The notes under the pieces: generated by a model
Database searches by the model: none
What the model was told of the DNA's origin: nothing
What the model saw: only the letters and a program-made list of their open reading frames with translations
Source of the DNA: Acholoe squamosa
Taxonomy: Eukaryota > Annelida > Polychaeta > Phyllodocida > Polynoidae
Length of the DNA stretch: 64,000 bases
Assembly: GCA_949317995.1 (NCBI GenBank)
Contig: OX439046.1
Location: 76,818,786-76,882,785 of the forward strand
Direction of reading: 5' to 3'
Part shown: positions 3,001-44,837 of the stretch, one piece after another
How positions within the stretch are numbered: position 1 is the first letter of the stretch
Layout: each line of letters starts with the position of its first letter
Program-made: the position numbers and the translations under genes

Positions 3001-6000
3001 CTATGGTGAGGTACATGGGGTTAGCAGAGTCTGTAAATACCAGTACACATTATGGTGAGACAACTGGGGGCCTATGGTGAGGTACCTGGGGGCCTATGGT
3101 GAGGTACCTGAGGTTAGCAGAGTCTGTAAATACCAGTACACATTATGGTGAGACAACTGGGGGCCTATGGTGAGGTACCTGGGTTACAGAGTCTGTAAAT
3201 ACCAGTACACATTATGGTGAGACAACTGGGGGCCTATGGTGAGGTACCTGGGTTACAGAGTCTGTAAATACCAGTACACATTATGGTGAGACAACTGGGG
3301 GCCTAAGGTGAGGTACCTGGGTTACAGAGTCTGTAAATACCAGTACACGTTATGGTGAGACAACTGGGGGCCTATGGTGAGGTACCTGGGGTTAGCAGAG
3401 TCTGTAAATACCAGTACACATTATGGTGAGACAACTGGGGGCCTATGGTGAGGTACCTGAGGTTAGCAGAGTCTGTAAATACCAGTACACATTATGGTGA
3501 GACAACTGGGGGCCTATGGTGAGGTACCTGGGTTACAGAGTCTGTAAATACCAGTACACATTATGGTGAGACAACTGGGGGTCTATGGTGAGGTACCTAG
3601 GTTAGTAGAGTCTGTAAATACCAGTATACATTATATAACTGGGGGTCTATGGTGAGGTACCTGGGGTTAGCAGTGTCTGTAAATACCAGTACACATTATG
3701 GTGAGACAACTGGGGGCCTATGGTGAGGTACCTGGGGTTAGCAGAGTCTGTAAATACCAGTACACATTATGGTGAGACAACTGGGGGCCTATGGTGAGGT
3801 ACCTGAGGTTAGCAGAGTCTGTAAATACCAGTACACATTATGGTGAGACAACTGGGGGCCTATGGTGAGGTACCTGGGTTACAGAGTCTGTAAATACCAG
3901 TACACATTATGGTGAGACAACTGGGGGTCTATGGTGAGGTACCTAGGTTAGTAGAGTCTGTAAATACCAGTATACATTATATAACTGGGGGTCTATGGTG
4001 AGGTACCTGGGGTTAGCAGTGTCTGTAAATACCAGTACACATTATGGTGAGACAACTGGGGGCCTATGGTGAGGTACCTGGGGTTAGCAGAGTCTGTAAA
4101 TACCAGTACACATTATGGTGAGACAAATGGGGGCCTATGGTGAGGTACCTGGGGTTAGCAGAGTCTGTAAATACCAGTACACATTATGGTGAGACAACTG
4201 GGGGTCTATGGTGAGGTACCTGGGGTTAGCAGAGTCTGTAAATACCAGTACACATTATAGTAAGACAACTATCGGCCTATGGTGAGGTACCTGGGGTTAG
4301 TAGAGTCGTCTGTAAATACCAGTACACATTATGGTGAGACAACTGGGGGCCTATGGTGAGGTACCTGGGGATAGTAGAGTCTGTAAATACCAGTACACAT
4401 TATGGTGAGACAAATGGGGGCCTATGGTGAGGTACCTGTGGTTAGTAGAGTCTGTAAATACCAGTACACATTATGGTGTGATAACTGGGGGCCTATGGTG
4501 AGGTACCTGGGTTACAGAGTCTGTAAATACCAGTACACATTATGGTGAGACAACTGGGGGGCTATGGTGAGGTACCTGTGGTTAGTAGAGTCTGTAAATA
4601 CCAGTACACATTATGGTGTGATAACTGGGGGCCTATGGTGAGGTACCTGGGTTACAGAGTCTGTAAATACCAGTACACCTTATGGTGAGACAACTGGGGG
4701 CCTATGGTGAGGTACCTGGGGTAAGCGGAGTTTGTAAATACCAGTACACATTATGGTGAGACAACTGGGGGCCTATGGTGAGGTACCTTGGGTTAGCAGA
4801 GTCTGTAAATACCAGTACACATTATGGTGAGACAACTGTGGGCCTATGGTGAGGTACCTAGGGTTAGCAGAGTCTGTAAATACCAGTACACATTATATAA
4901 CTGGGGACCTATGGTGAGGTACCTGGGTTACAGAGTCTGTAAATACCAGTACACATTATGGTGAGACAACTGGGGGCCTATGGTGAGGTACCTGGGGTTA
5001 GCGGAGTTTGTAAATACCAGTACACATTATGGTGAGACAACTGGGGGCCTATGGTGAGGTACCTGGGGTTAGCAGAGTCTGTAAATACCAGTACACATTA
5101 TGGTGATACAACTGGGGGCCTATGGTGAGGTACATGGGGTTAGCAGAGTCTGTAAATACCAGTACACATTATGGTGAGACAACTGGGGGCCTATGGTGAG
5201 GTACCTGGGGGCCTATGGTGAGGTACCTGAGGTTAGCAGAGTCTGTAAATACCAGTACACATTATGGTGAGACAACTGGGGGCCTATGGTGAGGTACCTG
5301 GGTTACAGAGTCTGTAAATACCAGTACACATTATGGTGAGACAACTGGGGGCCTATGGTGAGGTACCTGGGTTACAGAGTCTGTAAATACCAGTACACAT
5401 TATGGTGAGACAACTGGGGGTCTATGGTGAGGTACCTAGGTTAGTAGAGTCTGTAAATACCAGTATACATTATATAACTGGGGGTCTATGGTGAGGTACC
5501 TGGGGTTAGCAGTGTCTGTAAATACCAGTACACATTATGGTGAGACAACTGGGGGCCTATGGTGAGGTACCTGGGGTTAGCAGAGTCTGTAAATACCAGT
5601 ACACATTATGGTGAGACAAATGGGGGCCTATGGTGAGGTACCTGGGGTTAGCAGAGTCTGTAAATACCAGTACACATTATGGTGAGACAACTGGGGGTCT
5701 ATGGTGAGGTACCTGGGGTTAGCAGAGTCTGTAAATACCAGTACACATTATAGTAAGACAACTATCGGCCTATGGTGAGGTACCTGGGGTTAGTAGAGTC
5801 GTCTGTAAATACCAGTACACATTATGGTGAGACAACTGGGGGCCTATGGTGAGGTACCTGGGGATAGTAGAGTCTGTAAATACCAGTACACATTATGGTG
5901 AGACAAATGGGGGCCTATGGTGAGGTACCTGTGGTTAGTAGAGTCTGTAAATACCAGTACACATTATGGTGTGATAACTGGGGGCCTATGGTGAGGTACC

Positions 6001-7380
6001 TGGGTTACAGAGTCTGTAAATACCAGTACACATTATGGTGAGACAACTGGGGGGCTATGGTGAGGTACCTGTGGTTAGTAGAGTCTGTAAATACCAGTAC
6101 ACATTATGGTGTGATAACTGGGGGCCTATGGTGAGGTACCTGGGTTACAGAGTCTGTAAATACCATTACACCTTATGGTGAGACAACTGGGGGCCTATGG
6201 TGAGGTACCTGGGGTAAGCGGAGTTTGTAAATACCAGTACACATTATGGTGAGACAACTGGGGGCCTATGGTGAGGTACCTTGGGTTAGCAGAGTCTGTA
6301 AATACCAGTACACATTATGGTGAGACAACTGTGGGCCTATGGTGAGGTACCTAGGGTTAGCAGAGTCTGTAAATACCAGTACACATTATATAACTGGGGA
6401 CCTATGGTGAGGTACCTGGGTTACAGAGTCTGTAAATACCAGTACACATTATGGTGAGACAACTGGGGGCCTATGGTGAGGTACCTGGGGTTAGCGGAGT
6501 TTGTAAATACCAGTACACATTATGGTGAGACAACTGGGGGCCTATGGTGAGGTACCTGGGGTTAGCAGAGTCTGTAAATACCAGTACACATTATGGTGAT
6601 ACAACTGGGGGCCTATGGTGAGGTACATGGGGTTAGCAGAGTCTGTAAATACCAGTACACATTATGGTGAGACAACTGGGGGCCTATGGTGAGGTACCTG
6701 GGGGCCTATGGTGAGGTACCTGAGGTTAGCAGAGTCTGTAAATACCAGTACACATTATGGTGAGACAACTGGGGGCCTATGGTGAGGTACCTGGGTTACA
6801 GAGTCTGTAAATACCAGTACACATTATGGTGAGACAACTGGGGGCCTATGGTGAGGTACCTGGGTTACAGAGTCTGTAAATACCAGTACACATTATGGTG
6901 AGACAACTGGGGGCCTAAGGTGAGGTACCTGGGTTACAGAGTCTGTAAATACCAGTACACATTATGGTGAGACAACTGGGGGCCTATGGTGAGGTACCTG
7001 GGGTTAGCAGAGTCTGTAAATACCAGTACACATTATGGTGAGACAACTGGGGGCCTATGGTGAGGTACCTGAGGTTAGCAGAGTCTGTAAATACCAGTAC
7101 ACATTATGGTGAGACAACTGGGGGCCTATGGTGAGGTACCTGGGTTACAGAGTCTGTAAATACCAGTACACATTATGGTGAGACAACTGGGGGTCTATGG
7201 TGAGGTACCTAGGTTAGTAGAGTCTGTAAATACCAGTATACATTATATAACTGGGGGTCTATGGTGAGGTACCTGGGGTTAGCAGTGTCTGTAAATACCA
7301 GTACACATTATGGTGAGACAACTGGGGGCCTATGGTGAGGTACCTGGGGTTAGCAGAGTCTGTAAATACCAGTACACATT
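1..7380. repeat. Higher-order repeat of 2119 bp within the satellite
   Basis: The marker unit with ATAGTAAGACAACTATC begins at 1, 2120, 4239 and 5732. The first two intervals are both 2119 bp, with the same order of unit variants. The third is 1493 bp and lacks about nine units. The fourth copy runs until the pattern changes near 7380. Very high identity between copies implies recent block duplication by unequal exchange. Confidence 0.9.
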
Positions 7381-10300
7381 ATGGTGAGATAACTAGGGGC
7401 CAATGGTGAGATACCTGGGTTAGTAGAGTCTGTAAATACCAGTACACATTATGGTGAGACAACTGAGGGTCTATGGTGAGGTACCAGGGGTTAGCAGAGT
7501 CTGTAAATACCAGTACACATTATGGTGAGACAACTGGGGGCCTATGGTGAGGTACCTGGGTTAGCAGAGTCTGTAAATACCAGTACACAGTATGGTGAGA
7601 CAACTGGGGGCCTATGGTGAGGTACCTTGGGTTAGCAGCGTCTGTAAATACCAGTACACATTATGATGAGACAACTGGGGGCCTATGGTGAGGTACCTGG
7701 GTTACAGAGTCTTTAAATACCAGTACACATTATGGTGAGACATCTGGGGGCCTATGGTGAGGTACCAGGGGTTAGTAGAGTCTGTAAATACCAGTACACA
7801 TTATGGTGAGACAACTGGGGGCCTATGGTGAGGTACCAGGGGTTAGCAGAGTCTGTAAATACCAGTACACATTATGGTGAGACAACTGGAGGCCTAGGGT
7901 GAGGTACCTGGGTTAGTAGAGTCTGTAAATACCAGTACACATCATGCTGAGATAACTGGGGGCCTATGGTGAGGTACCTGGGTTACAGAGTCTGTAAATA
8001 CCAGTACACATTATGGTGAGACAACTGGGGGCCTATGGTGAGGTACCAGGGGTTAGCAGAGTCTGTAAATACCAGTACACATTATGGTGAGACAACTGGG
8101 GGCCTATGGTGAGGTACCAGGGGTTAGCAGAGTCTGTAAATACCAGTACACATTATGGTGAGACAACTGGGGGCCTATGGTGAGGTACCAGGGGTTAGTA
8201 GAGTCTGTAAATACCAGTACACATTATGGTGAGACAACTGGGGGCCTATGGTGAGGTACCTGGGGTTAGTAGAGTCGTCTGTAAATACCAGTACACATTA
8301 TGGGGAGACAACTGGGGGCCTATGGTGAGGTACCTGGGGTTAGCGGAGTCTGTAAATACCAGTACACATTATGGTGAGACAACTGGAGGCCTATGGTGAG
8401 GTACCTGGGTTACAGAGTCTGTAAATACCAGTACACATTATGGTGAGACAACTGGGGGCCTATGGTGAGGTACCAGGGGTTAGCAGAGTCTGTAAATACC
8501 AGTACACATTATGGTGAGACAACTGGGGGCCTATGGTGAGGTACCTGGGTTACAGAGTCTGTAAATACCAGTACACCTTATGGTGAGACAACTGGGGGCC
8601 TATGGTGAGGTACCTGGGGTAAGCGGAGTTTGTAAATACCAGTACACATTATGGTGAGACAACTGGGGGCCTATGGTGAGGTACCTTGGGTTAGCAGAGT
8701 CTGTAAATACCAGTACACATTATGGTGAGACAACTGTGGGCCTATGGTGAGGTACCTAGGGTTAGCAGAGTCTGTAAATACCAGTACACATTATATAACT
8801 GGGGACCTATGGTGAGGTACCTGGGTTACAGAGTCTGTAAATACCAGTACACATTATGGTGAGACAACTGGGGGCCTATGGTGAGGTACCTGGGGTTAGC
8901 GGAGTTTGTAAATACCAGTACACATTATGGTGAGACAACTGGGGGCCTATGGTGAGGTACCTGGGGTTAGCAGAGTCTGTAAATACCAGTACACATTATG
9001 GTGATACAACTGGGGGCCTATGGTGAGGTACATGGGGTTAGCAGAGTCTGTAAATACCAGTACACATTATGGTGAGACAACTGGGGGCCTATGGTGAGGT
9101 ACCTGGGGGCCTATGGTGAGGTACCTGAGGTTAGCAGAGTCTGTAAATACCAGTACACATTATGGTGAGACAACTGGGGGCCTATGGTGAGGTACCTGGG
9201 TTACAGAGTCTGTAAATACCAGTACACATTATGGTGAGACAACTGGGGGCCTATGGTGAGGTACCTGGGTTACAGAGTCTGTAAATACCAGTACACATTA
9301 TGGTGAGACAACTGGGGGCCTAAGGTGAGGTACCTGGGTTACAGAGTCTGTAAATACCAGTACACATTATGGTGAGACAACTGGGGGCCTATGGTGAGGT
9401 ACCTGGGGTTAGCAGAGTCTGTAAATACCAGTACACATTATGGTGAGACAACTGGGGGCCTATGGTGAGGTACCTGAGGTTAGCAGAGTCTGTAAATACC
9501 AGTACACATTATGGTGAGACAACTGGGGGCCTATGGTGAGGTACCTGGGTTACAGAGTCTGTAAATACCAGTACACATTATGGTGAGACAACTGGGGGTC
9601 TATGGTGAGGTACCTAGGTTAGTAGAGTCTGTAAATACCAGTATACATTATATAACTGGGGGTCTATGGTGAGGTACCTGGGGTTAGCAGTGTCTGTAAA
9701 TACCAGTACACATTATGGTGAGACAACTGGGGGCCTATGGTGAGGTACCTGGGGTAGCAGAGTCTGTAAATACCAGTACACATTATGGTGAGATAACTAG
9801 GGGCCAATGGTGAGATACCTGGGTTAGTAGAGTCTGTAAATACCAGTACACATTATGGTGAGACAACTGAGGGTCTATGGTGAGGTACCAGGGGTTAGCA
9901 GAGTCTGTAAATACCAGTACACATTATGGTGAGACAACTGGGGGCCTATGGTGAGGTACCTGGGTTAGCAGAGTCTGTAAATACCAGTACACAGTATGGT
10001 GAGACAACTGGGGGCCTATGGTGAGGTACCTTGGGTTAGCAGCGTCTGTAAATACCAGTACACATTATGATGAGACAACTGGGGGCCTATGGTGAGGTAC
10101 CTGGGTTACAGAGTCTTTAAATACCAGTACACATTATGGTGAGACATCTGGGGGCCTATGGTGAGGTACCAGGGGTTAGTAGAGTCTGTAAATACCAGTA
10201 CACATTATGGTGAGACAACTGGGGGCCTATGGTGAGGTACCTGGGGTTAGTAGAGTCGTCTGTAAATACCAGTACACATTATGGGGAGACAACTGGGGGC

Positions 10301-10976
10301 CTATGGTGAGGTACCTGGGGTTAGCGGAGTCTGTAAATACCAGTACACATTATGGTGAGACAACTGGAGGCCTATGGTGAGGTACCTGGGTTACAGAGTC
10401 TGTAAATACCAGTACACATTATGGTGAGACAACTGGGGGCCTATGGTGAGGTACCAGGGGTTAGCAGAGTCTGTAAATACCAGTACACATTATGGTGAGA
10501 CAACTGGGGGCCTATGGTGAGGTACCAGGGGTTAGCAGAGTCTGTAAATACCAGTACACATTATGGTGAGACAACTGGGGGCCTATGGTGAGGTACCAGG
10601 GGTTAGTAGAGTCTGTAAATACCAGTACACATTATGGTGAGACAACTGGGGGCCTATGGTGAGGTACCTGGGGTTAGTAGAGTCGTCTGTAAATACCAGT
10701 ACACATTATGGGGAGACAACTGGGGGCCTATGGTGAGGTACCTGGGGTTAGCGGAGTCTGTAAATACCAGTACACATTATGGTGAGACAACTGGGGGCCT
10801 ATGGTGAGGTACCTGGGTTACAGAGTCTGTAAATACCAGTGCACATTATGGTATGATAACTGGAGGCCTATGGTGAGGTACCTGGGGTTAGCAGAGTCTG
10901 TGAATACCAGTACACATTATGGTGAGACAACTGGGGGCCTATGGTGAGGTACCTGGGGTTAGTAGAGTCTGTAAAT
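7381..10976. repeat. Second higher-order pattern (about 2.4 kb) within the satellite
   Basis: The marker variant GAGATAACTAGGGGCCAATGG occurs near 7388 and again near 9792, a period of about 2404 bp. Units with GTACCAGGGG and with the longer GAGTCGTCTGTAAATACC junction are typical here and rare in the 2119-bp blocks. The second copy is rearranged before the transposon junction at 10976. Confidence 0.75.
10973..10976. other. Target-site duplication AAAT, left copy
   Basis: The left flank reads TCTGTAAAT and the right flank AAATACCAG. A normal satellite unit reads TCTGTAAATACCAG. The AAAT is therefore present twice, once on each side of the element, as expected from a 4-bp staggered insertion. 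If the outermost T/A is counted in the inverted repeat, the duplication would read as 2 bp; 4 bp is the maximal reading. Confidence 0.85.
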
Positions 10977-11000
10977 GACCAATTGTCATGAATCATCCAT
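10977..11000 (+). repeat. Left terminal inverted repeat of the transposon
   Basis: Begins GACCAATTGTCATGAATC, then ATCCA. The first 23 bases match the reverse complement of the right end with one A/G difference. A smaller internal symmetry (CAATTG) sits at bases 4-9. Confidence 0.93.
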
Positions 11001-12143
11001 ATCTGGCTTTTTTTTCAATAAAAACTCTAAATTAAGTAACATCTGTGTGTTTATCATTTATTCTGGTCGGGATGGGATAGAGCTACAAATGGTATATGGG
11101 TTTTGCATATCTCCGAGGCATATTAAGGGAGTGGGGGGCCTAAAACTGCCCAAAATGAGGCTTTTTTCAAGCAAAAACACAAAAATCTGTACTACATCTT
11201 GTAAAAAAAAAACACAAGGCATATAGGTTCTATTTTGTGTTTTGGTATTTCCCCCATAACAAAGGGAAAATTTTAAGACCATATAGGTATACGTAGGCAA
11301 ATAATTTTATCTGCTGGGGCCAAAAATGTATTTGGGCAGTTTAACGCGGGACCCGACGTATACCCTAACATGGCTTCCCTGCTCTATTTTAAATATAGAA
11401 GGGGGAAGAGAGAAATGTACCATGCAAAGCCTTAACATGTCTATATATGTATAAAAAAAAAATTGGGAGCCTAGCTCTAATATCTTGGCCTGGGTGCTCC
11501 ATCCCGCTCAAGTGACACACTTGGGGTAGTTTTTCGCGTCACCCGACGTATACCCTACTTTCAGTCCTACCACCCCTCCATAATATATTTAACTAATATG
11601 TTATATATGGTAAGTTACCTTATAACCAAGGTATCTAACCCTGAAACAACCAACCCCCTCCTCCACCATGGCACACGGCTATGCCAACATCACTTAGGGC
11701 GGTACCCGACGTACACCCGGGACCCGACGGATCCCCTAGCGCCAAACGCATGAACTAGGCTCCAGCGCGCCATCTGTCGTCTCTTAGCGGTACTGCTCGG
11801 TAGAGTTACAACGGCTGGGAGTCACCCGACGGACGCCGATAGATTTCAAGGTAAGAAATCGATGAATTATGTTTCTTTTCCCGCATAATATGGTACAAGT
11901 ATCTCGAAATAAGTGCAGAACATGTAGGGGAATGTGTATGAACCTCAAAATAGTAGAGTATTACCCCTTAACTGCTCGAAACGGCATATAAACACGACCC
12001 CCTAGCGATATCGCTATGCGCTAACATAGTCAATGCTATAGAATAGGCGGGGATACGACGGGTGACGGTGTACATCGGGTGACTCCTACGGGTATACGTC
12101 GGGTGACGTTCACGGCTAATAACCCATTCTTCTTCCTTTGTAG
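11001..12143. other. Left subterminal region of the transposon
   Basis: Non-coding. It holds five copies of the subterminal motif in GTCACCCGAC orientation (11350, 11538, 11702, 11720, 11821), then three in GTCGGGTGAC orientation (12051, 12068, 12092), just upstream of gene 1. The short open frames here have no protein-like composition. A splice acceptor (CTTTGTAG) directly precedes the gene 1 start codon, so an upstream non-coding exon and the promoter probably lie here. Confidence 0.7.
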
Positions 12144-12474
12144 ATGCCTTATGCCGACCCAAACTCCGAGGCTGCCAAGGCCAGCCGAAAGAAATCAAAG
12201 AAGAAGTGGGAAGAGAAAATAAAGCAGGATCCAGAAAAGCTGGAAAAAAGAAAACAGCAGAAACGTGTAAGTACGAAATATATAAATGAATGTACATGTA
12301 TACTACATGGATTATGCTAGTTGTGTGGCCTATGGGTGTACTTCGGGTGACACATGTAATCTTTTGGGTAGTATATATGGTAAGATAGGAGGGTATACGT
12401 CGGGTGACGCACGTAATTGTTTAGGTAGTATTATGGCATGATCCTTCTGTATTGCCAGGTATACGTCGGGTGAC
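11350..12474. repeat. Left cluster of 16-bp subterminal motifs
   Basis: Consensus GTATACGTCGGGTGAC. Reverse-orientation copies start at 11350, 11538, 11702, 11720 and 11821. Forward copies start at 12051, 12068, 12092, 12336, 12393 and 12459. The conserved core is CGTCGGGTGAC or its complement GTCACCCGACG, and the flanking sequence is unrelated between copies. Multiple subterminal repeats of this kind are transposase-binding sites in hAT, En/Spm and Mutator-like elements, so that role is inferred here. The last three lie inside the first intron of gene 1. Confidence 0.88.
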
Positions 12475-14891
12475 ACGAGCAAGTGAAATCTTAGGCCATA
12501 CTGGCGTTACTGTCTTATTGTTTTAAACAATTTATTTCCTTTCATTTCAGGACCATGACAAGAAGAGGCCCTACTCCAGCCTCACTGAGGCAGAGAAAGA
12601 GGCAAAACGTGCCCACAAGAGGGATGTGCGGGCATTGGCCAAGGAAGGTATGGATCCTCTTATGAAATTAGATTTTATGTCAAATGTATTCCATTGTCTT
12701 TTTATTATAGGTTATAGGGAAGGAGTGTCAAATATGAAAATAAAAAATTTTACCTCATAACTTAAATGTTGTATTTTTATGTTCATCAGAACGTGAAGTT
12801 CAAGCTGCTGCCCCCCAAGCAGCCCCTGATGTCGAGGCCCCTGCTGCCGCTGCGCCGCCTGCCGCTGCGCCGCCTGCCGCTGCGCCGCCTGCTGCAGCGC
12901 CGCCTGCCGCTGCGCCGCCGGGGACCCGCAAGACATCGCGGCGGAACAAGGGAGAGGCACCGCCTCCCACTGGGCCCCTCCCCGAGAAACGGAGGAAGCC
13001 AACTGCCACTCGGTTAGTATTTTTAACATTGTCACAAATAAGAAAAAAAAAATTAAGATCTATCTATGGGAAGAAGTTATTTTGCATAAATCTAATAAAC
13101 AAAAATTATATAATATGTCCCCCAGTACAGGAGGGTGATAGACAAATTGACCATCAACAGAATTACAGTGGAACTTTTATTTGCAGCTCACGAGCAGACA
13201 GCCCAGAGGCTAGCACTTCCGCTGATGCCGCTGGTAGTGCCGCACCTCTCACCTCGCCTCCACCACTTCCACCGGCTCGAAGGAGGAAGGCTGCCAGCAC
13301 CAGCAGCACCAGCAGCAGTGACTCCCCCGTGGCCAGCACCTCTTTAGAAGCAGCACCACCTTCACCACCTTCACGCCCTCGCCGCTCAGGACCATCCAGC
13401 AGCTGCTCAGTCACTGCCCCCGTAGCCAGCACGTCTGGCACCAGGACTGGCAGGAGGAAGGGTGAGCCCCGAGCCTCTTCAGCACCTCGGTTAGTAATGC
13501 TTGTTAATTCCTATAATATGACCTGTAAGTCAAAACCATGATATAGTGTAATAACCAAAAGAGCAATGCATGCATGTTACCCATAGTAGACCCACCAGTA
13601 CAGGTTTATGGTAGCCTATAGATATGTAATTACCAATAGAATAACGCATGTCACCCGACGTAGACCATCCAGTACAGGAACACAGGATCTATGCATGCAT
13701 GTATACATTCATACTTGTTTAATTCTTAACCCAACATGTGTTGTCATTTCTGTGCAGGATACCTCAGTCCAGTCCGTCTCCCACTTCAACCTACACATTT
13801 GGAAGAATACTGCCTTATTTCATTTTTGATCTCACATCGCGAGTGACACACACTTTTTCACCTGGTAGACTGGAGGTCACTAGATGTTTGCTGGGTTCCC
13901 TTATAAATATTTAAAATAGGTATGAGTGACATGTGGATACCTACGGTGTGTCGGGTTCTGCCTGGCGAACAACGAAGCATGTCTCACATATCTAGGAACC
14001 TCTCAGATGTCGAGTATCTGAATCTCAGCACCCTGCTGCTATGGTTTTTTTTTTGTGTGTCATTGGCTATCTCGATGTAACTTAAATGTGAGGTCAAAAA
14101 AGGAAATTAAGCAGGTTGATCTTGATCCATAGCCTAGCGTTTACACCCAAATTAAATTGCACACATTATAAAGTATCCCCTCCCTAACAAATTTATGCAT
14201 ACATGTGCTAGTAATTATGGCCATGGAAGTGGGAGACAGCGTTTCTTGGACCTGGTCCGTTAATGTCATCCTCCTGTACTGGTGGGTCTCTGTAGGGCTT
14301 CATTTTGTTCATGTAGGTATCACCCTACTGTACTTGTGGGTCTCTCCCTACGGTCCCCGTCCATTTCTGTGGCAATCAGTCTCATACAGGTACTGGTGGT
14401 TTGTACTTTCAGCTCCACAGTGTCTCCAGCAAGGGTGTCTCCTCCTCCACCCAGAGTCACCTTCGCAGCGACCCCACCCACAGCTGGGACCGTCGCTGCT
14501 GTCGATGCTGGCCTCCCCGGTGCAGCATTTGCAGAGCTGACCCCTACCACTCCCTCAATGGAACGGTTAGTATTGTTAACTTATTTCCCTTAAGTTTGCA
14601 CTAATAAATTCCATTTTCATTTCAGATGGCACTGAATGATTAACACAATATAAATTTATGTTAACTTGATGTTGAGACTTTACTTTCATTAACGAATTGG
14701 TTCTGTTGTGTTCTGTTTCTTAATGAGATTTAATTTCTTTCAGTGTGATGGACACTATGCCATACAGGATGGTACCCGTGCCCTACAACCTGCGAGGGCG
14801 CCGTGGCACCAAACATGTTGAGGCCAAGGTGCTGGGGGTGGGCATCGTTGTTGTGAAGCAGGAGGCCCCAAGCAGCGATGAGGAGAACTGA
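12144..14891 (+). CDS. Transposon gene 1: basic, low-complexity putative DNA-binding protein (348 aa, six exons)
   Basis: Coding exons are 12144-12266, 12551-12647, 12790-13012, 13187-13489, 14413-14565 and 14744-14891. Every junction is GT-AG and all phases agree, giving 1047 nt ending in TGA. The protein starts MPYADPNSEAAKASRKKSKK. Residues 10-75 are a charged, probably helical K/R/E region with motifs like KxxPEKLEKRK and SLTEAEKEAKRAHKR. Residues 80-120 hold an A-A-A-P-P repeat then a KTSRRNKG basic patch. The middle is Ser/Pro/Ala-rich with ARRRK and GRRKG patches. The C-terminus (YRMVPVPYNLRGRRG...) ends in an acidic DEEN tail. I recall similar charged repeats at the N-terminus of proteins related to gene 2, so here the DNA-binding part may be a separate subunit. 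No catalytic motif is visible. The ATG sits directly after a splice acceptor (12142-12143). Confidence 0.75.
13650..13665 (-). repeat. Isolated subterminal-type motif inside gene 1 intron 4
   Basis: GTCACCCGACGTAGAC, one mismatch to the reverse-orientation consensus. It is followed by CATCCAGTACAGG; a related CCAGTACAGG occurs at 13592 and near 13122. A degenerate copy (GTTACCCATAGTAGACC) lies about 75 bp upstream, so this intron seems to carry decayed duplicates. Confidence 0.6.
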
Positions 14892-14917
14892 TTTTGTTTA
14901 TATTCTGTTTTTTTCTT

Positions 14918-14923
14918 ATTAAA
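14918..14923 (+). promoter_or_regulatory. Probable poly(A) signal of gene 1 (ATTAAA)
   Basis: ATTAAA lies 27 bp after the gene 1 stop codon, in a T-rich stretch, and is followed by a GT-containing segment. ATTAAA is the commonest variant of AATAAA in animals. No better signal lies between the stop and the 136-bp module. Confidence 0.45.
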
Positions 14924-14999
14924 AGCCTGGTGCTTCTTATTCTTAACTAAAGTCTATGTATACATGTATCTAACCTAATATATATATCATATCTCTTAG

Positions 15000-15135
15000 A
15001 AGTGTTACATCTCAGTTGCTGTAGTTTGAGCGAGTGGGAATACTTGGCACCTTGTTCTGTAGAAAGCATGGGATTACCCGCTTGGGGGTGCCCGGTGCAC
15101 CCACTGGCCCAAACTGCAGCACTGAGATGTACCTT
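15000..15135. repeat. 136-bp duplicated module, copy 1 (after gene 1)
   Basis: Matches 17987-18122 with about four substitutions in 136 positions and no gaps. The ends are inverted: TTACATCTCAGTTGCTGTAG near the start pairs with the end (TGCAGCACTGAGATGTA), and GGGTGCCCGGTGCACCC lies within. It sits about 110 bp after the stop of gene 1. It could be a small MITE-like hairpin, a structured 3-prime RNA element or a transcription terminator. It does not match U1, U2, U5 or 5S RNA as I know them. Confidence 0.9.
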
Positions 15136-15589
15136 CTGTAACTTTTCTATCTGTAAGTTAACTTTCATTAAGAGTAGATTCATAGATCAATATATTATAA
15201 AGATATATGTATACAGTTTAAAAGTACAAATTTAAAAGAGATGTATATATATACATGTACCTACTTGACAGAGATAGAGATAAAAGTTTATTTAAAAGAG
15301 GTACTTATAAGATATATATATTTAAACAAAAATAAAAGTTTTTATTTTTCTCACTATGTTTGTGTTTTGTCATCACTTGTAACATACTTACGAGGGGATA
15401 GATATGTAGGGTCTACACTTCAGGTGAGATGCGTTCCTATTGGTTATTACTGTGCCTATCATCACTCTGTTATGGAGGATGTACATATATGTCAGGTCCC
15501 ACATCACTGGTTACACAGGTTCTCTCGTGGATGCTTATTACTTTTACTTACCATGGACCAAACATTTTCTTTTTAGCTTGGTTGTGTCC
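15136..15589. other. Intergenic region and presumed promoter/leader of gene 2
   Basis: AT-rich DNA with ATATATATA runs (15244-15255, 15311-15322) that could serve as TATA-like elements. A splice acceptor with a good pyrimidine tract (TTTTCTTTTTAG, AG at 15575-15576) lies 13 bp before the gene 2 start codon, so a non-coding leader exon probably exists. The frame is open further upstream (to 15440), but that part looks like intron rather than protein. Confidence 0.5.
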
Positions 15590-17497
15590 ATGCCGTTCCA
15601 CCGAACACCCTTCTCCAAACTCCCCAAGGCGAGAAAGATGCGGCGCGAGATGGACGAGATGGAGAGAGAGATTGCTGAACTGCGCAAGGAAGTAAAGCGC
15701 AGCAAAGAGGCTTTAAAAGCATCCTCCCCTCAGGGCAGCACCACATCAGCAATCTCCTCTCGTCCCAGCCTGAGTCAACCCATCACAACTTCTGCCAGCC
15801 CAAGAGACCCAAACCAACTACACTGGGTAGACCCAGTGTACCCCGCGCCGCAGGAACTATTGGAGGTTCCAGCACCTGAGCCCCAGCCTGTAGCTCCAGC
15901 ACCTGAGCCCCAGCCTGTAGCTCCAGCACCTGAGCCCCAGCCTGTAGCCCCAGCACCTGAGGCCCAGCCTGTAGCTCCAGCACCTGAGGCCCAGCCTGTA
16001 GCTCCAGCACCTCAGCCCCAGCCTGCAGTCCCAGCAGCAGAGGAGCCTGCTCCACCAGCCCCTCAGCAAAGGCGTCAGAGGCCTGCCCCGGAATCGCCCA
16101 AGACCGAGACCAGGCAGGTCCTCGACGCGCTTGATATAACACCAACTAAGAAGAGGTTAGACGAGCTGACCAGCTACATCATGGTAGCCCAGCAGGTCAG
16201 GGTGAGCTCCACCAAGGTGAAGCAGGGACTCATGGCAGAGCCTGCTGTGAAAAAAGTGTATGGCCAGGCTGGGCGACTTAGCAAGCAGGTGGGGTTATCC
16301 CCAGAATATATATTTCACACCCCAGAGCCAAGCCACACCCGACAGGACAACTCTGAGGAGACCAGGCAACACGTTATAGCATTCCTAAAACGAGAAGATA
16401 ATAGCTACGAGCTACCGCACAAGCGTTACGTAAACAAGAGGGGTGAAACAAGATTTGCTTTGGCTGACACAATGGTGAATTTGCACCTAAAGTACTGTAC
16501 GGAGTATGATTCCACCATTTCTCCATCCACGTTTGTGCGGGCAAGGCCCAATACTGTGAAACTGAACCACTTTCTGAAGCGCTCAGTGTGCCTGTGTAAG
16601 TCCCATGCCAATATGGGGTTAATGCTGGAGGCCGTCCCTGGACTGCCAAACTCCACCAGCCAGCTGATCGAATTGTACACCGATGGGGAGATCGTAGAAA
16701 AGTTAAATCAAATCAGTACTGACTATGTGACATATGAAAAGTGGACGAAAGTGGAAAAGAAGTTTAACGACAAGGATGTCACTTATACTAAACTTGTCAA
16801 GGTAGCCGAAGAGAAGAAAGACTTTGTCGCATTGTTCAAGGCTGCCCTGCCCGAATTCAGGCAGCACTGTGAACGGGTGCACCAACAGTTCACACAATGC
16901 CAGGCCCTGAAAGACCACCTCCCGGAGGGACACTGCATAATCCAAATGGATTATGCTGAGAACTGGAACACCTCGTACCTCCGGGAGGTGGCTGCTGCTT
17001 ACTACAGCAAAGACCAGGTGACTCTCCACCCTATGGTGGTCAAGGTCCGGGGAGCAGACGGGGAGATCATCACAAAAACATTTGTCGGCGTTACATCCAT
17101 CACCAGCCACACCTTCCCCACCACCTGGGTTTTTGTGCAGAAGTTGGTGGCACAGCTGAAAGAGGAGCACGACCTCTGCTACATTCATTTTATAACGGAC
17201 AGCCCTAGCTCCCAGTACCATAACAGGTACACTGTTCAAATGATCGCCCGCTTTGAGGGTCTCCTCGGCCTCAGCGCAGCCTGGAACTGGCTGGAGTCAG
17301 GCCATGGCAAGGGGGCCTGCGACGGGGTCGGGGGCACCCTCAAGCGGTTAGCGGACCGCCTTGTTAAGTCACACCCAGATAAAACCATCCAGAATGCTGG
17401 GGACTTTGCAGAGAAGGTTGGCCCTGCAACAAAGGTGCAAATCATCCATGCCTCACCAGAGGAGGTCAAACAGGCAGAGGAGGATGTGGCCTCATGA
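15590..17497 (+). CDS. Transposon gene 2: RNase H-like transposase candidate (635 aa to an in-frame TGA)
   Basis: One uninterrupted exon. The start is ATG 15590 (MPFHRTPFSKLPKARK), chosen because an acceptor sits just upstream; the open frame extends 50 codons further. Residues 17-45 form a charged coiled coil. Residues 94-148 are six copies of a nine-residue PAPEPQPVA repeat. A helical segment with VKKVYGQAGRLSKQVGLS precedes a conserved block with RARP and C334-x-C336-x2-H339-x-N. The putative catalytic acids are D454 (MDYAENW), D537 (TDSPSSQYHN) and E569 or D578 (ESGHGKGACDGVGGTLKR). I recall the motif order DxAEN, SDG-x-SQYKN, HGK-x2-CDG-x-GG-x2-KR from many uncharacterised fish, cnidarian and insect proteins. 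A DDE/D RNase H fold is inferred. The frame continues after the TGA to 17950. Confidence 0.85.
   Translation: MPFHRTPFSKLPKARKMRREMDEMEREIAELRKEVKRSKEALKASSPQGSTTSAISSRPSLSQPITTSASPRDPNQLHWVDPVYPAPQELLEVPAPEPQPVAPAPEPQPVAPAPEPQPVAPAPEAQPVAPAPEAQPVAPAPQPQPAVPAAEEPAPPAPQQRRQRPAPESPKTETRQVLDALDITPTKKRLDELTSYIMVAQQVRVSSTKVKQGLMAEPAVKKVYGQAGRLSKQVGLSPEYIFHTPEPSHTRQDNSEETRQHVIAFLKREDNSYELPHKRYVNKRGETRFALADTMVNLHLKYCTEYDSTISPSTFVRARPNTVKLNHFLKRSVCLCKSHANMGLMLEAVPGLPNSTSQLIELYTDGEIVEKLNQISTDYVTYEKWTKVEKKFNDKDVTYTKLVKVAEEKKDFVALFKAALPEFRQHCERVHQQFTQCQALKDHLPEGHCIIQMDYAENWNTSYLREVAAAYYSKDQVTLHPMVVKVRGADGEIITKTFVGVTSITSHTFPTTWVFVQKLVAQLKEEHDLCYIHFITDSPSSQYHNRYTVQMIARFEGLLGLSAAWNWLESGHGKGACDGVGGTLKRLADRLVKSHPDKTIQNAGDFAEKVGPATKVQIIHASPEEVKQAEEDVAS
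15869..16030 (+). repeat. 27-bp coding repeat (PAPEPQPVA x6) in the transposase
   Basis: Six copies of a 27-bp unit encode nine residues each, with E/A and T/C variation. The unit is a multiple of three, so copy number can change without breaking the frame. It separates the coiled coil from the catalytic region and is probably a flexible linker. Confidence 0.9.
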
Positions 17498-17950
17498 AAC
17501 AGCCCTGCCCTCCATGGAATAACCACCATCCATCAGGCCGCTTGCCATGAGGGCCAGATCAAGGTGAGGAACACCTCCTGCTACAGTCCATGCTGCCTCA
17601 GTGAGGATGGCTTCCAACCAAGCTGCAAGGACTGGAAGGGCACCAGAGTCGCACAGGTTGGAGAAGTGGTTGAAGAGGTCGTGGATGACTGTGATGAATG
17701 GGACTCTGGTTACGACTCCACCACCGACGACGACCGCCCTCTCATTATATTGCAACAGGAGCTGCGGGAAGATGACATGCCCCTTGCCCAGCTGCAGGCC
17801 CAAGTCCGGCGAGAGGAGAATCTGGAGGACGCCGTACCACTGACCCAGATGCCACCTGACACGGAAGACGAGGATGATATCCCCATAACACAGCTGCAGC
17901 TCCCCAAGCGTGCTACCAGGCGGTCCACTCGTCGCACTCTCCGTCGTTAA
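17495..17950 (+). pseudogene. C-terminal part of the transposase beyond an in-frame TGA
   Basis: After TGA 17495-17497 the same frame stays open for 150 codons to TAA 17948-17950. The stretch looks genuinely coding. A conserved-looking segment, ALHGITTIHQ then GQIKVRNTSCYSPCC and C-x2-W, resembles the cysteine-rich C-terminus I recall in relatives. An acidic tail follows (VVDDCDEWDSGYDSTTDDD) with three DDMPLAQLQ-like repeats and an arginine-rich end. The TGA could come from a CGA codon by CpG deamination. Alternatives are stop-codon readthrough or a sequencing error. An independent short protein is unlikely, because no ATG leads this segment. Confidence 0.75.
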
Positions 17951-17986
17951 CCATACACCCTTGTACAAATAAGTCAATGATGTCAC

Positions 17987-18122
17987 AAGTGTTACATCTC
18001 AGTTGCTGTAGTTTGAGCGAGTGGGAGTACTTGGCACCTTGTTCTGTAGAAAGCATGGGATTACCCGCTTGGGGGTGCCCAGTGCACCCACTGGCCCAAA
18101 CTACAGCACTGGGATGTACCTT
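17987..18122. repeat. 136-bp duplicated module, copy 2 (after gene 2)
   Basis: Direct copy of 15000-15135 at about 97% identity, beginning 36 bp after TAA 17950. Both copies sit in the same orientation just downstream of a gene of the element, which suggests a role in 3-prime end formation or a duplicated hairpin insertion. Confidence 0.9.
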
Positions 18123-18250
18123 GCTTTAAATAATAGGTTATTACTGTGGACATTGTCCCCTATTGGGTCATTGTAGTGGGCATAACCCTCCATGATATAT
18201 ACCTGGGTGGGATGGGGGATATAGAATTTTCAGTAAAATGAATTAATTCA

Positions 18251-18553
18251 TTGGATTAAGTCATAATAGATAGATTAAGACATGATGGGTAGCCTGGGGT
18301 ATGGATAATTGAATGAAGTCATATCTAGAAATAAAATGAATTAAGTCACTGCGATGATTATAAATGTACTATGGGGGGCTAGGGGGTTTGGAGGGTTAGT
18401 TGGATTAAGTCATAACTTAGATGGATTAAGTCATAACTTAGATGGATTAAGTCATAAGAGATTAAGACTTGATGGGATAGGGATAGTTGGATTAAGTCAT
18501 AACTTAGATGGATTAAGTCATATAGATGTTTTAAGTCATGTTTTAAGTCATGA
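18251..18553. repeat. ATTAAGTCAT minisatellite inside the transposon
   Basis: About nine imperfect copies of a 21-bp unit built on GGATTAAGTCATAACTTAGA; the clearest run is 18400-18536. TAAGTCATAACTTA is itself an inverted repeat. It lies between gene 2 and the right subterminal motifs and has no counterpart on the left. Confidence 0.85.
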
Positions 18554-18747
18554 TAAATGGAGAAAACGGGGGTCAATAAAAGTGTTCTTTCCAGTTTTGT
18601 TAAAAATTGTTTCTGTTATACATTTACTATGGGTAATGATTGAATCAATGGCCACAGATGCCCCTCACTAGCATTAGAGTACAGCCCACATAGTCCCTTC
18701 AGCATAGAGGGGTGATAGGTACAGTAACAACCGAGAGAGAAACGCGT

Positions 18748-19527
18748 GTCACCCGACGTATACCCTGGATAACCTATCGCGTCACCCGACGTATACCCTA
18801 TCTGAGGTCACATAGCTGAATTAATACAAATTCTAAGCTTATAATCTTACCCCTGGACTTAGATAAGAATATTAGCCAGCATATAAAGAAGGAATAAGGG
18901 AGGTTAGTCATGTATTTCTGCAACGTTAAGCCCTTGATAGCTCAATTTTACCACAAAATCCATCAAAATCCATAAAAAACAATTAAACTTCCATCTGTCA
19001 TGGTTGAAAATGGACTGTAATACTGGATTAGAAGTTTCTTTGAATACTTAGGAACATATTGGAATGGGTTATAAGCAGTCATTCTATGAAAGAATAGGTT
19101 GGAAGGAAAATACAACAAATAATGGTTTTGCGCTCCGTTAACGCGCGATCGCGTCACCCGACGTATACCCTAATTGAGGTGATATAGCAGGAATACTATA
19201 AGGCCTAGGATAATATCCTTATACCTGGACTTAGACATGCATGTTAGCTACCATATAAAGTAGGAATAGGAATGGTGACTCATCTGTGATTAGTTTTAAA
19301 GAGTTAGACAAAAAGCATGTTCAGTTGTGCAGGGACCGCACGCACGCCTGGATATTTCATTTTTTCTCAAAAATTAACAAAAAATCACAGAATCTCCATC
19401 TAAATTCATTCATAGCATGCTCAAATATGTTTATTTTATATATCAAAAAGAATTATTAAGGTATGATTCATATGTTACATGTTAAATTAGGATAACCTGC
19501 AGCAGGGCAGGGTATACGTCGGGTGAC
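18748..19527. repeat. Right cluster of 16-bp subterminal motifs
   Basis: Reverse-orientation exact copies (GTCACCCGACGTATAC) start at 18748, 18781 and 19153, and a forward copy (GTATACGTCGGGTGAC) starts at 19512. The outermost motif on the right is forward and the outermost on the left is reverse, so the two ends are mirror images, as expected for sites bound by a transposase dimer. Around 18800-18900 and 19180-19270 two paralogous stretches (TATAAAG(A/T)AGGAATA, CTGGACTTAGA) accompany the motifs, so part of this end is a local duplication. Confidence 0.88.
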
Positions 19528-19692
19528 GCGCGATATTGACATACTCAAGTTCCCTGCTATGCCCTGGATTTAAAAACGATATTTAACCTACCCACATATA
19601 TGGACCCTAAGCCCCAACACCTATACTATATATACCCTAAAACCTTTTAGGCTGCTCCAGAATATTTTTGGGACCCCCCTGCCAGCCCACTT

Positions 19693-19716
19693 CTGGACGA
19701 TTCATGACAATTGGTC
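19693..19716 (-). repeat. Right terminal inverted repeat of the transposon
   Basis: Reads GATTCATGACAATTGGTC at its end, the reverse complement of the left terminus. Beyond the first 23 bases similarity decays quickly (left CATATCTGGC, right CAGAAGTGGG). Confidence 0.93.
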
Positions 19717-22315
19717 AAATACCAGTACACATTATAGTAAGACAACTGGGGGCGTATGGTGAGGTACCTAGGGTTAGTAGAGTCTGTAAATACCAGTACA
19801 CATTATAGTAAGACAACTGGGGGCGTATGGTGAGGTACCTAGGGTTAGTACAGTCTGTAAATACCAGTACACATTATGGTAAGACAGCTGGGGGCGTATG
19901 GTGAGGTACCTAGGGTTAGTAGAGTCTGTAAATACCAGTACACATTATGGTAAGACAACTGGGGGCCTATGGTGAGGTACCTGGGTTACAGAGTCTGTAA
20001 ATACCAGTACACATTATGGTGAGACAACTGGGGGCCTATGGTGAGGTACCTGGGGTTAGCAGAGTCTGTAAATACCAGTACACATTATGGTAAGACAACT
20101 GGGAGCCTATGGTGAGGTACCTGGGGTAAGCAGAGTCTGTAAATACCAGTACACATTATATAACTGGGGGCCTATGGTGAGGTACCAGGGGTTAGTAGAG
20201 TCTGTAAATACCAGTACACATTATGGTGAGACAACTGGAGGCCTATGGTGAGGTACCTGGGGTTAGCAGAGTCTGTAAATACCAGTACACATTATGGTAA
20301 GACAACTGGGAGCCTATGGTGAGGTACCTGGGGTTAGCAGATTCTGTAAATACCAGTACACATTATATAACTGGGGGCCTATGGTGAGGTACCTGGGTTA
20401 GCAGAGTCTGTAAATACCAGTACACTTTATGGTAAGACAACTGGGGGCCTATGGTGAGGTACCTGGGGTTAGCAGAGTCTGTAGATACCAGTACACATTA
20501 TGGGGAGACAACTGGGGGCCTATGGTGAGGTACCTGGGGTTAGTAGAGTCTGTAAATACCAGTACACATTATGGTAAGACAACTGGGGGCCTATGGTGAG
20601 GTACCTGGGGTTAGCAGAGTCTTTAAATACCAGTACACATTATATAACTGGGGGCCTATGGTGAGGTACCTGGGTTAGCAGAGTCTGTAAATACCAGTAC
20701 ACTTTATGGTAAGACAACTGGGGGCCTATGGTGAGGTACCTGGGGTTAGCAGAGTCTGTAGATACCAGTACACATTATGGGGAGACAACTGGGGGCCTAT
20801 GGTGAGGTACCTGGGGTTAGCGGAGTTTGTAAATACCAGTACACATTATGGTGAGACAACTGGAGGCCTATGGTGAGGTACCTGGGATTAGCAGAGTCTG
20901 TAAATACCAGTACACATTATGGTGAGACAACTGGGGGCCTATGGTGAGGTACCTGGGGTTAGCAGAGTCTGTAAATACCAGTACACATAATGGTGAGACA
21001 ACTGGAGGCCTATGGTGAGGTACCTGGGGTTAGTAGAGTCTGTAAATACCAGTACACATTATGGTGAGACAACTGGAGGCCTATGGGGAGGTACCTGGGG
21101 TTAGCAGAGTCTGTAAATACCAGTACACATTATGGTGAGACAACTGGGGGCCTATGGTGAGATACCTGGGTTACAGAGTCTGTAAATACCAGTACACATT
21201 ATGGTGAGACAACTGGGGGCCTATGGTGAGGTACCTGGGGTTAGCAGAGTCTGTAAATACCAGTACACATTATATAACTGGGGGCCTATGGTGAGGTACC
21301 TGGGGTTAGCAGAGTCGTCTGTAAATACCAGTACACATTATGGTGAGACAACTGGGGGCCTATGGTGAGGTACCTGGGGTTAGCAGAGTCGTCTGTAAAT
21401 ACCAGTACACATTATATAACTGGGGGCCTATGGTGAGGTACCTGGGGTTAGCAGAGTCTGTAAATACCAGTACACATTATATAACTGGGTGCCTATGGTG
21501 AGGTACCTGGGGTTAGCAGAGTCTGTAAATACCAGTACACTTTATGGTAAGACAACTGGGGGCCTATGGTGAGGTACCTGGGGTTAGCAGAGTCTGTAAA
21601 TACCAGTACACATTATGGTATGATAACTGGGGGCCTATGGTGAGGTACCTGGGTTAGCAGAGTCTGTAAATACCAGTACACATTATATAACTGGGGTCCT
21701 ATGGTGAGGTACCTGGGGTTAGCAGAGTCTGTAAATACCAGTACACATTATGGTTTGACAACTGGGGGCCTATGGTGAGGTACCTGGGTTACAGAGTCTG
21801 TAAATACCAGTACACATTATGGTAAGACAACTGGGGGCCTATGGTGAGGTACCTGGGTAAGCAGAGTCTGTAAATACCAGTACACATTATATAACTGGGG
21901 TCCTATGGTGAGGTACCTGGGGTTAGCAGAGTCTGTAAATACCAGTACACATTATGGTGAGACAACTGGGAGCCTATGGTGAGGTACCTGGGTTACAGAG
22001 TCTGTAAATACCAGTACACATTATGGTGAGACAACTGGGGGTCTATGGTGAGGTACCTGGGGTTAGCAGAGTCTGTAAATACCAGTACACATTATGGTGA
22101 GACAACTGGGGGCCTATGGTGAGGTACCTGGGGTTAGCAGAGTCTGTAAATACCAGTACACATTATGGTGAGACAACTTGGGGCCTATGGTGAGGTACCT
22201 GGGGTTAGCGGAGTCTGTAAATACCAGTACACATTATGGTATGATAACTGGGGGCCTATGGTGAGGTACCTGGGGTTACCGGAGTCTGTAAATACCAGTA
22301 CACATTATGGTAGTG
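19717..22315. repeat. 71-bp satellite array, right part
   Basis: Starts with the duplicated AAAT and continues the unit that was interrupted at 10976. Units here more often carry GGTAAGACAACTGG, CTTTATGG and TATATAACTGG variants. A local higher-order block of about 277 bp is seen (the variant GTAGATACCAGTACAC recurs at 20481 and 20758). The array ends near 22315, where unit sequence breaks into unrelated DNA (TAGTGAAGTAGTGACC). Confidence 0.96.
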
Positions 22316-31549: not shown

Positions 31550-31775
31550 GGATCATGGTGTAATGGTTAGCATGCTGGAATGTCATGCCACAGATCAGGG
31601 TTCAAGTCCCGGTGATCCTAAATATTTTCACCTTCCAACTACACCTGGATCGGTATGATACACACCAGGGGAGCAGTGATTACCAGGTAACTGGCCCCTG
31701 AGGGTCAATCTACTGGGCACAGGTATTTCTGGTCCCATACACGACACTCGGGGTTAATAATAAAGTTACTTTACG
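31550..31775 (+). mobile_element. tRNA-derived SINE with tRNA-like head (31550-31619)
   Basis: The head folds as a tRNA. Acceptor arm GGATCAT pairs with GTGATCC. A box A-like TGGTGTAATGG and an excellent box B GGTTCAAGTCC are present. The anticodon loop ATGTCAT would read GTC (Asp), but the anticodon stem has two mismatched pairs. The D-arm words TGGTGTAATGGTTAGCA resemble animal tRNA-Gln or tRNA-Glu genes. About 150 bp of unrelated sequence (CCAACTACACCTGGATCGG..) follows without a T-run terminator, ending near TTAATAATAAAG. That fits a SINE better than a working tRNA gene. Confidence 0.65.
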
Positions 31776-33964: not shown

Positions 33965-34627
33965 TTAAAGGTGTTTTCCACCATCAATTATATCGCCACC
34001 TGGTGGCCAAAAATTGAAACTCCCTTATTTTACCTAAACCCATGATATACGCTTATATCCCTTTTGTATCCAGCTGCTGAATATCAGACTTTTGTATTTT
34101 TCATGACAAAACATTAAGATTCACTATTGGCCAACTTCATAGATTTCTGTAATTGCGGAAAAGGATTTTCTAGATTCTGCCAGTAAACTTCCAATTCTTT
34201 GCTCATAAAATGTTCATAATGATTGTATCTTAATCCCTGCAAAGTCTGGTGAACAAATTCCTGCTAGTTTTTTCCGGTCATGGGAAATGTAAGAAATTCC
34301 AACACTTTTCATTTCTGCATTTTTGTTTAAATTATTCATGGCTCTTTTGTTTGTCCAATGACTACCTATTTTTATTGCTTTGTCCTGGTACAAATGATGT
34401 CTACTAGACATATGAGAAGTTGAGTTAAGATATTGCTGGTCAGTTTTTCAATACTTGAGAAAATCATGAAAAATAGAGGTTTCTCCCATAAGCGGCCATA
34501 GTTAAGGATTCCCCATCTTCAAAAGTCAATGAATCTGAAACTAGCACAATGATTTTTATTGCTTCAGCTACCTCATAATACATAAAACTAATATGATCCC
34601 AAGTGATTTGGAGAAACTGCTGGTAGT
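33965..34627 (-). mobile_element. AAAGG-end MITE, truncated copy
   Basis: Aligns in reverse orientation with most of 53054-53787: shared words include CCACCTGGTGGC, CATGGCTCTTTTGTTTGTCC, CTAGTAGACAT-like and GATTTGGAGAAACTGCTGGT. It begins at the AAAGG inverted end (33965) and breaks off at GGTAGTT near 34627, so about 70 bp of the other end are missing. The two copies differ in several indels, indicating an old family. Confidence 0.8.
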
Positions 34628-34639
34628 TACACTGGCGGG

Positions 34640-38451: not shown

Positions 38452-38755
38452 CACTGAAAACATGGAAGATCCGAAACTAGTCAGCGGTGACCACTTTAGG
38501 TCCTCAAGTTGACAATACCTAAAACTACAGCTTTAGGTAGTCAAAATGACGACTTTAGGTCATCATCCTGACGACCTGAGTCATCAGGATGACAATACTG
38601 ACAGTACAGAGTCGTCATATTGATAACTCAGGTCGTCAGGATGACGACCTAAAGTCGTCATTTTGACTACCTAAAGCTATAGTTTTAGGTATCATCAACT
38701 TGAGGACCTAAAGTGGTCACCGCTGACTAGTTTCAGAACTTCTAGGTTTTCAGTG
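38452..38755. mobile_element. Foldback MITE with long inverted arms
   Basis: Ends CACTGAAAACATGG and CTAGGTTTTCAGTG are inverted. The arms continue for about 130 bp each through GACCACTTTAGGTCCTCAAG, TCAAAATGACGACTTTAGGT and CCTGACGACCTGAGT, leaving only a short central spacer near 38590-38625. The transcript would form a very long hairpin. Flanking duplication is not clear. A second palindromic stretch (AAATGTCATTTTGACATTT) lies just upstream at about 38370-38388. Confidence 0.85.
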
Positions 38756-44820: not shown

Positions 44821-44837
44821 GTTTTTAAGCTAATAGA

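Follow-up and report, generated by a model that had tools for sequence, protein, structure and literature searches.

What kind of element has entered the satellite DNA of Acholoe squamosa at this locus, and how are its genes organized? The window analyzed here, a stretch of 64,000 nucleotides of contig OX439046.1, contains a 71-bp satellite that is broken at positions 10977-19716 by 8740 bp of foreign DNA, which is probably a recent insertion of a multicopy cut-and-paste transposon of autonomous type encoding a DDD transposase, with Sola as the likeliest superfamily and Sola2 as its nearest group. The first 18 bp of the element are the perfect reverse complement of the last 18 bp (87% identity over 30 bp) and AAAT flanks both borders, and the coordinates, inverted ends and flanks that an earlier note had read from this DNA are exact. 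Removal of 8744 bp restores an ordinary satellite unit, as that note had also claimed, because the 26-mer formed by the joined flanks, AGTCTGTAAATACCAGTACACATTAT, matches 190 sites in the window with at most one mismatch (0 expected). The end sequence occurs in the window at these two sites only, with up to three mismatches allowed (0.08 expected by chance).

The satellite to the left of the element (window 1-10976) contains an irregular block repeated at 874, 2993 and 5112 with a spacing of 2119 bp and then at 6605 and 9010, giving a higher-order period. The observed/expected ratio of CpG is 0.56 inside the element versus 0.33 outside it (window 22300-64000), as would suit a recently inserted element in a host whose genome is methylated.

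Copies and Related Families in the Host Genome

The host genome (1.48 Gb, 63 contigs) was searched with the left 300 bp of the element, copies being counted from the left end only, and 40 matches were scored of 613 candidates. Thirteen of these, the window included, are at least 98% identical over the whole query, two are 99-100% identical over part of it and 25 are 80-86% identical. Twenty matching stretches were retrieved, and both ends were accepted in 15 copies, window included. The copies left out are L016, L017, L022, L027 and L028, with one end missing within the stretch at up to four mismatches, and L020, in which the second end is a four-mismatch match only with no matching flank. A perfect 4-bp duplication is present in 14 of the 15 copies, the exception being L023, and takes nine different sequences (GTAT four times, ATAT and ATAC twice each, and AAAT, ATCT, ACAT, AGCT, TTAT and GGAC once each). 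The young family makes up 11 of the 14 (the window, L009-L015, L018, L019 and the internally deleted L021) with 18/18 bp at both ends; besides the window there are at least nine long copies and one internally deleted copy with perfect ends, each with its own perfect 4-bp duplication. Identity to the window is 97.9-99.2% in the seven copies with an unbroken alignment to it (L010-L015 and L018). L024, L025 and L026 form an older group whose ends have one to three mismatches. The earlier note had proposed a search for other copies with the same ends and a 4-bp duplication and had regarded their absence as a refutation; such copies are present in the host genome.

In L016 two left ends lie 5.6 kb apart (301 and 5947), each preceded by an identical 12-base sequence that ends in ATAT, a pattern that a tandem duplication of a segment together with target DNA would leave. 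L025 is a mosaic, with a backbone mostly 98-100% like L024 and a region at ~15.9-18.0 kb (window coordinates) that is closer to the window; its transposase core is 94% like that of the window's family, and the right breakpoint is near the hairpin HP2 described below.

A genome search with the transposase core gave 95 matches, with 93 scored of 1425 candidates, which fall into groups of ~91-100, 77-83, 67-68 and 53-59% identity with a few fragments between. Pairs from three transposase-identity groups give elements of 7.1-8.4 kb. Read by eye, the 4-bp duplication in these other families is ATAT in L030, L032 and L033, and GTAT in L031 provided that its altered right end is read that way, and the flanks are one base apart in L029 (ATAT/ACAT) and L034 (ATCT/ATAT). 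Among the families examined the ends begin GACC, GACT, GGTC or, in L033, CACC. A little-studied transposase type is represented in the host by several families, and many of the scored matches have open frames, which would make activity, target choice and regulation directly testable.

The DDD Transposase

The search for relatives of the transposase gave 51 proteins with E values up to 1 among 8000 scored candidates, including gene models from the sea urchin Lytechinus pictus and the oyster Saccostrea echinata that are named only as uncharacterized. In the alignment of the window protein with 36 of the 51 relatives (37 rows; the 15 omitted are mostly shorter), D454, D537 and D578 are invariant in all 37 rows, and E457 and E569 are each present in 36 of 37. 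The motif between the second and third acidic residues is ExxH (E569-H572), not C/DxxH, in 36 of the 37 rows. A pattern scan of three other host families found motifs 2 and 3 in all three and motif 1 in two, L029 being the family without it. The order of strands and helices read around the triad would be that expected of an RNase H-like transposase.

No Pfam or Protein Data Bank sequence match above chance was found for the transposase, and Pfam gave no convincing family match in the 37 relatives scanned, so that annotation reliant on Pfam leaves such genes uncharacterized. No helicase or nuclease Pfam match was found in the transposase or in the four exon pieces scanned, exons 2 and 5 lying outside the scan, and no relatives were found in the viral or prokaryote contigs scanned.

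The transposase exon is open to its natural stop in eight of the 11 long family copies (window, L009-L015, L018, L019 and L022); it is broken in the window by one premature stop and in L019 and L022 by frameshifts. In the sister copies this exon is likewise broken, by a premature stop in L024 and a frameshift in L025. Comparison of L011 with L024 gives proportions of nonsynonymous and synonymous differences (pN and pS) of 0.146 and 0.714, a ratio of ~0.07 that is rough with pS near saturation, but the protein is clearly under constraint. Because of its premature stop the window copy is probably mobile only in trans, via protein from open-frame copies.

Gene Organization and Subterminal Repeats

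Upstream of the transposase, six exons with GT-AG borders encode a predicted basic accessory protein of 348 amino acids rich in Ala, Pro and Ser. All 11 family copies keep its spliced frame open, at lengths of 1035-1098 nucleotides (nt) that differ by multiples of three. Exon 6 looks constrained, with a nonsynonymous to synonymous rate ratio (dN/dS) of ~0.15 for L011 versus L024 and a homologous exon in L031 (E 2e-7). The acceptor of the transposase exon, ttttag/C at 15576, has phase 2, matching the donors of exons 3, 4 and 5, and joining exons 1-5 to exon 7 gives 939 codons without a stop. The arrangement is apparently that of one gene with two alternative last exons, yielding either the accessory protein or the transposase.

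The sequence CACCCGACGTATACC matches 18 sites in the window with at most three mismatches (1.00 expected), of which 16 are inside the element and the two outside have three mismatches each. Eleven of the internal copies lie in the left 1.5 kb, one in intron 4 and four in the right 1 kb. The viral contigs scanned for the end sequence, the subterminal repeat and the hairpin core gave no match.

The features suggest a mechanism in which a transcript from the left side would be spliced from exons 1-5 to exon 6 to give the small basic accessory protein, or alternatively from exons 1-5 to exon 7 to fuse the same N-terminal part to the transposase. We infer the alternative last exons as in En/Spm-like elements (PMC2613891). 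The accessory part may bind the CACCCGACGTATACC repeats near both ends, and cleavage at the 18-bp inverted ends, followed by their joining to the target with a 4-bp stagger, would be the work of the transposase. The same 136-nt hairpin on both mRNAs would presumably let one factor act on both, and the intronic hairpin may contribute to last-exon choice. Table 1 lists the features by position.

Table 1. Positions of element features in the window (strand + is that of the window; a point marks features given without strand)
Feature	Position	Strand	Basis or remark
Target site duplication AAAT, left copy, in 71-bp satellite unit	10973..10976	.	Border reading
Left terminal inverted repeat, 18/18 bp	10977..10994	+	Identical at both ends of 11 young copies
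Left subterminal array, 11 CACCCGACGTATACC copies with at most 3 mismatches (5 +, 6 -)	11350..12472	.	
Exon 1, ATG (predicted)	12144..12266	+	Spliced frame open in 11/11 family copies
Exon 2 (predicted)	12551..12647	+	Spliced frame open in 11/11 family copies
Exon 3, Ala/Pro-rich repeat (predicted)	12790..13012	+	Spliced frame open in 11/11 family copies
Exon 4, basic, Ser/Pro-rich (predicted)	13187..13489	+	Spliced frame open in 11/11 family copies
Twelfth CACCCGACGTATACC copy, intron 4	13652-13666		
Conserved block, intron 4; mostly (13800-14140) one ~330-nt hairpin	13750..14136	+	z -4.07
Exon 5 (predicted)	14413..14565	+	Spliced frame open in 11/11 family copies
Exon 6, first alternative last exon, ends accessory protein (predicted)	14744..14891	+	Constraint; L031 homologue
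Hairpin HP1, presumed 3' untranslated region of exon-6 mRNA, 136 nt	15000..15135	+	z -8.76
AATAAA, possible poly(A) signal of exon-6 mRNA	15331..15336	+	ATTAAA also at 14918
Exon 7, second alternative last exon (predicted), DDD transposase	15577..17953	+	Acceptor, phase, constraint
DDD triad codons	16949-16951, 17198-17200, 17321-17323	+	Alignment
In-frame premature stop TGA, window copy	17495..17497	+	
Conserved Cys-rich C-terminal part, same frame after premature stop	17498-17950	+	Relatives read through in one frame
Hairpin HP2, presumed 3' untranslated region of transposase mRNA, 136 nt	17987..18122	+	z -8.86
AATAAA, possible poly(A) signal of transposase mRNA	18575..18580	+	Another at 18330
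Right subterminal array, 4 exact CACCCGACGTATACC copies	18750..19525	.	
Right terminal inverted repeat, 18/18 bp	19699..19716	-	Identical at both ends of 11 young copies
Target site duplication AAAT, right copy	19717..19720	.	Border reading

Conserved Hairpins in the Presumed Untranslated Regions and Intron 4

One hairpin follows each of the alternative stops, and the two, HP1 and HP2, are 97% identical to each other. None of 200 shuffles is as stable as either (z-scores in Table 1), and the four lowest z-scores of 113 windows along the element (mononucleotide shuffles, 16 each) are those over HP1 and HP2. Of the 11 long family copies, 10 keep both hairpins, as do the two sister copies L024 and L025. 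The L024 hairpins are 97.8 and 96.3% identical to HP1 and HP2 of the window, respectively, compared with 54-87% for other parts. In L009 most of HP1 is deleted (~4338, oriented), yet both reading frames are open.

Among 11 distinct hairpin sequences 99.1% of 583 cells pair (five fail), compared with 34-46% for the structure slid along the alignment. Two pairs have changed on both sides, with none in the slid structures and eight of 500 shuffles as good, in a test where relatedness alone can yield such a result and the structure is taken from one of the compared sequences; both two-sided changes occur in a single variant, the L023 hairpin being the same as HP2 of L025. The covariation evidence for the structure is supportive rather than proof. 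Six pairs with a one-sided change keep pairing, the change passing through G-U in the sense strand, which in this small sample favours RNA over a DNA cruciform as the form that would be maintained. In the genome, 40 hairpin matches were scored of 212 candidates, and 36 of the 40 adjoin element sequence as read from coordinates. Rfam at permissive thresholds gave two hits, both scoring far below the cut-offs of their families, one of them to a microRNA family over HP2 (22.4 bits versus 197).

The hairpin pair was rejected as a general feature of the superfamily, the hairpin of L029 being different and the scan having found none in the corresponding place in L031 or L033. The L029 hairpin (7700-7900) is ~130 nt long and has no detected similarity to those of the window; it begins ~30 nt beyond the transposase stop, and the family is only 53% identical. 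In L029 and L033 the direct repeats that surround the transposase part do not form similar hairpins (z +1.3 to -2.9).

The conserved block in intron 4 is 90-100% identical across 40 scored genome matches of 81 candidates. In 100-bp windows the region 13777-14176 is 96-100% identical to L024, compared with 47-93% for other non-hairpin windows. The block is 91% identical in the L031 family, where the transposase is 68% identical, and no counterpart was found in L029 or L033. Its predicted fold (-107.9 kcal/mol) is more stable than each of 100 shuffles and is not significant without the right arm. The alignment of five block sequences has no pair changed on both sides, and Rfam gave no match for the block. 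An RNA structure is suggested for this block, not proved, and its conservation could come partly from exchange between copies.

Relation to Known Superfamilies

The earlier note found that the features fit no superfamily it could name. This we would revise, as the DDD triad, the 4-bp AT-rich duplication and ends within 12-21 bp resemble Sola2, and the element appears Sola-like by its features rather than by sequence comparison with Sola. The founding paper of Bao et al. from 2009 is said to describe Sola transposases as DDD enzymes. Sola2 elements have 12-21-bp inverted ends, a range that includes the 18 bp found here, and 4-bp AT-rich duplications, with AWWT targets in a social amoeba and ATAT, AAAT and ATTT targets in another host; the transposase of one Sola2 element has 888 amino acids (Bao and Jurka 2013, PMC3627910). 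That account, as far as accessible, differs in making no mention of an accessory gene with alternative last exons, of subterminal arrays or of hairpins. In the literature covered, which leaves out subscription journals and Repbase Reports and included no search aimed at hairpins in transposon untranslated regions, the accessible texts do not mention hairpins for Sola elements. No description of the hairpin set and gene layout was found in the literature searched, and the motif HGKG did not occur among the literature matches listed. The transposase type looks known, the hairpins being the novel part; the unusual features of the element are its alternative last exons, the 16 subterminal CACCCGACGTATACC copies and the conserved hairpins.

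The element resembles CACTA/En-Spm in its subterminal repeat arrays and in one locus giving both a DNA-binding protein and a transposase (PMC2613891). It differs in its ends, GACC compared with CACTA or CAC, in its 4-bp duplication compared with 3 bp in the soybean element, and in the absence of a Pfam match to the CACTA transposase. CMC (CACTA, Chapaev) was rejected on its CAC...GTG ends, those of the element being GACC...GGTC. Chapaev is alike in its 3- to 4-bp duplication and animal hosts and unlike in its invariable CAC/GTG ends and DDE triad (PMC4079192). KolobokP has a similarly composite look, with repeated segments with inverted arms on either side of the transposase part, but its repeats are terminal, ~450 or 660 bp long and independently mobile, whereas those of the element are internal 136-nt hairpins (PMC9587614). 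Kolobok and piggyBac were rejected on their TTAA targets, present in none of the 14 duplications, and hAT, P, MuDR, Kolobok and Dada on the C/DxxH motif (PMC9587614), the motif here being ExxH. The AcademH and AcademX lineages are described as encoding a helicase or nuclease.

Alternative Explanations

Several observations weigh against parts of the reading preferred here, that of a Sola-type element with one gene and two alternative last exons. In the comparison with L024 and L025, identity is 60-70% for exons 1-4, no higher than the 61-69% of introns 1-3, and 72-75% for exons 5 and 6, below the 85-87% of introns 4 and 5. The spliced accessory frame is broken in both of these copies, and exon 5 of L024 contains a stop. 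Equivalence of the accessory N terminus to the basic N-terminal domain of other relatives is unsupported among the seven relatives compared (2.9 bits, with 48 of 1000 shuffles as good and 29 of 2000 without bias correction). Only three of the 14 duplications fit AWWT, nine being purine-pyrimidine-purine-pyrimidine. The AWWT count, the lack of a Pfam family match, the uncharacterized status of the two relatives named by NCBI and the ends starting GACC, GGTC, GACT or CACC (L033) would suit a DDD superfamily distinct from Sola, with the shared 4-bp duplication and DDD triad being convergent. We consider such a superfamily unlikely, as DDD, a 4-bp AT-rich duplication and short ends together are the Sola combination and reports of Sola2 come from bivalves, an ostracod and a wasp. 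It is similarly doubtful that the locus holds two separate genes, the transposase having its own promoter and start at 15590 and no alternative last exon. An ATG is present at 15590 in a long open reading frame, with poly(A)-like signals separating the genes at 14918 and 15331, but the in-phase acceptor 13 bp upstream of this ATG is retained in L024 and L025. The residues before the presumed start are conserved (LVVxMPF-like) and the Met is not, being Leu in L029 and P0022 and Ile in P0010; with the Met replaced in relatives while its neighbours are kept, a transposase start there is unlikely.

Conservation of the hairpins may reflect gene conversion between copies and not selection on RNA structure, an explanation that we hold to be somewhat improbable. 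The L025 mosaic of L024-like and window-like sequence speaks for it, as do the variant common to L023 and HP2 of L025, which holds both two-sided changes, and the likewise better conservation of introns 4 and 5 than of exons. The near-complete pairing compared with the slid structures, the two two-sided changes (with the caveat of relatedness) and the identity of the intron block in the L031 family despite its diverged transposase argue against it. Twofold insertion of a nested miniature mobile element is a very improbable origin for the hairpins. Their palindromic shape, the close identity of the two copies and the loss of most of HP1 in L009 would fit such an element, but no flanking duplications are seen at the window hairpins, two copies occur in the same orientation and places in 12 of the 13 long copies examined, and the coordinates, as read, place 36 of the 40 scored genome matches inside these elements. 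It is conceivable, if rather unlikely, that this lineage of animal DNA transposons carries structured RNAs of its own (the hairpins of the untranslated regions and that of ~330 nt in the intron), conserved above coding DNA, through which one factor, encoded by the element or by the host, would balance accessory protein against transposase. If the hairpins do act as RNA they would represent a new means of dosage self-control in a DNA transposon, and the structured-RNA reading, if true, would amount to RNA-level self-regulation in a cut-and-paste transposon.

Other Features of the Window

Tandem arrays are present elsewhere in the window at 35218-36002 (50-bp unit), 43166-43651 (81-bp unit) and 63213-64000 (47-bp unit). 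Self-complementary repeats at 45110-45526 (77%), 38452-38755 (90%) and 44827-44954 (85%) are possibly palindromic miniature elements, and an inverted pair of ~0.7-kb repeats at 33965-34629 and 53084-53789, with 78% identity, is probably an older dispersed repeat. A tRNA-Asp (GTC) gene at 31549-31620, outside the element, is the only Rfam match in the window at the gathering threshold.

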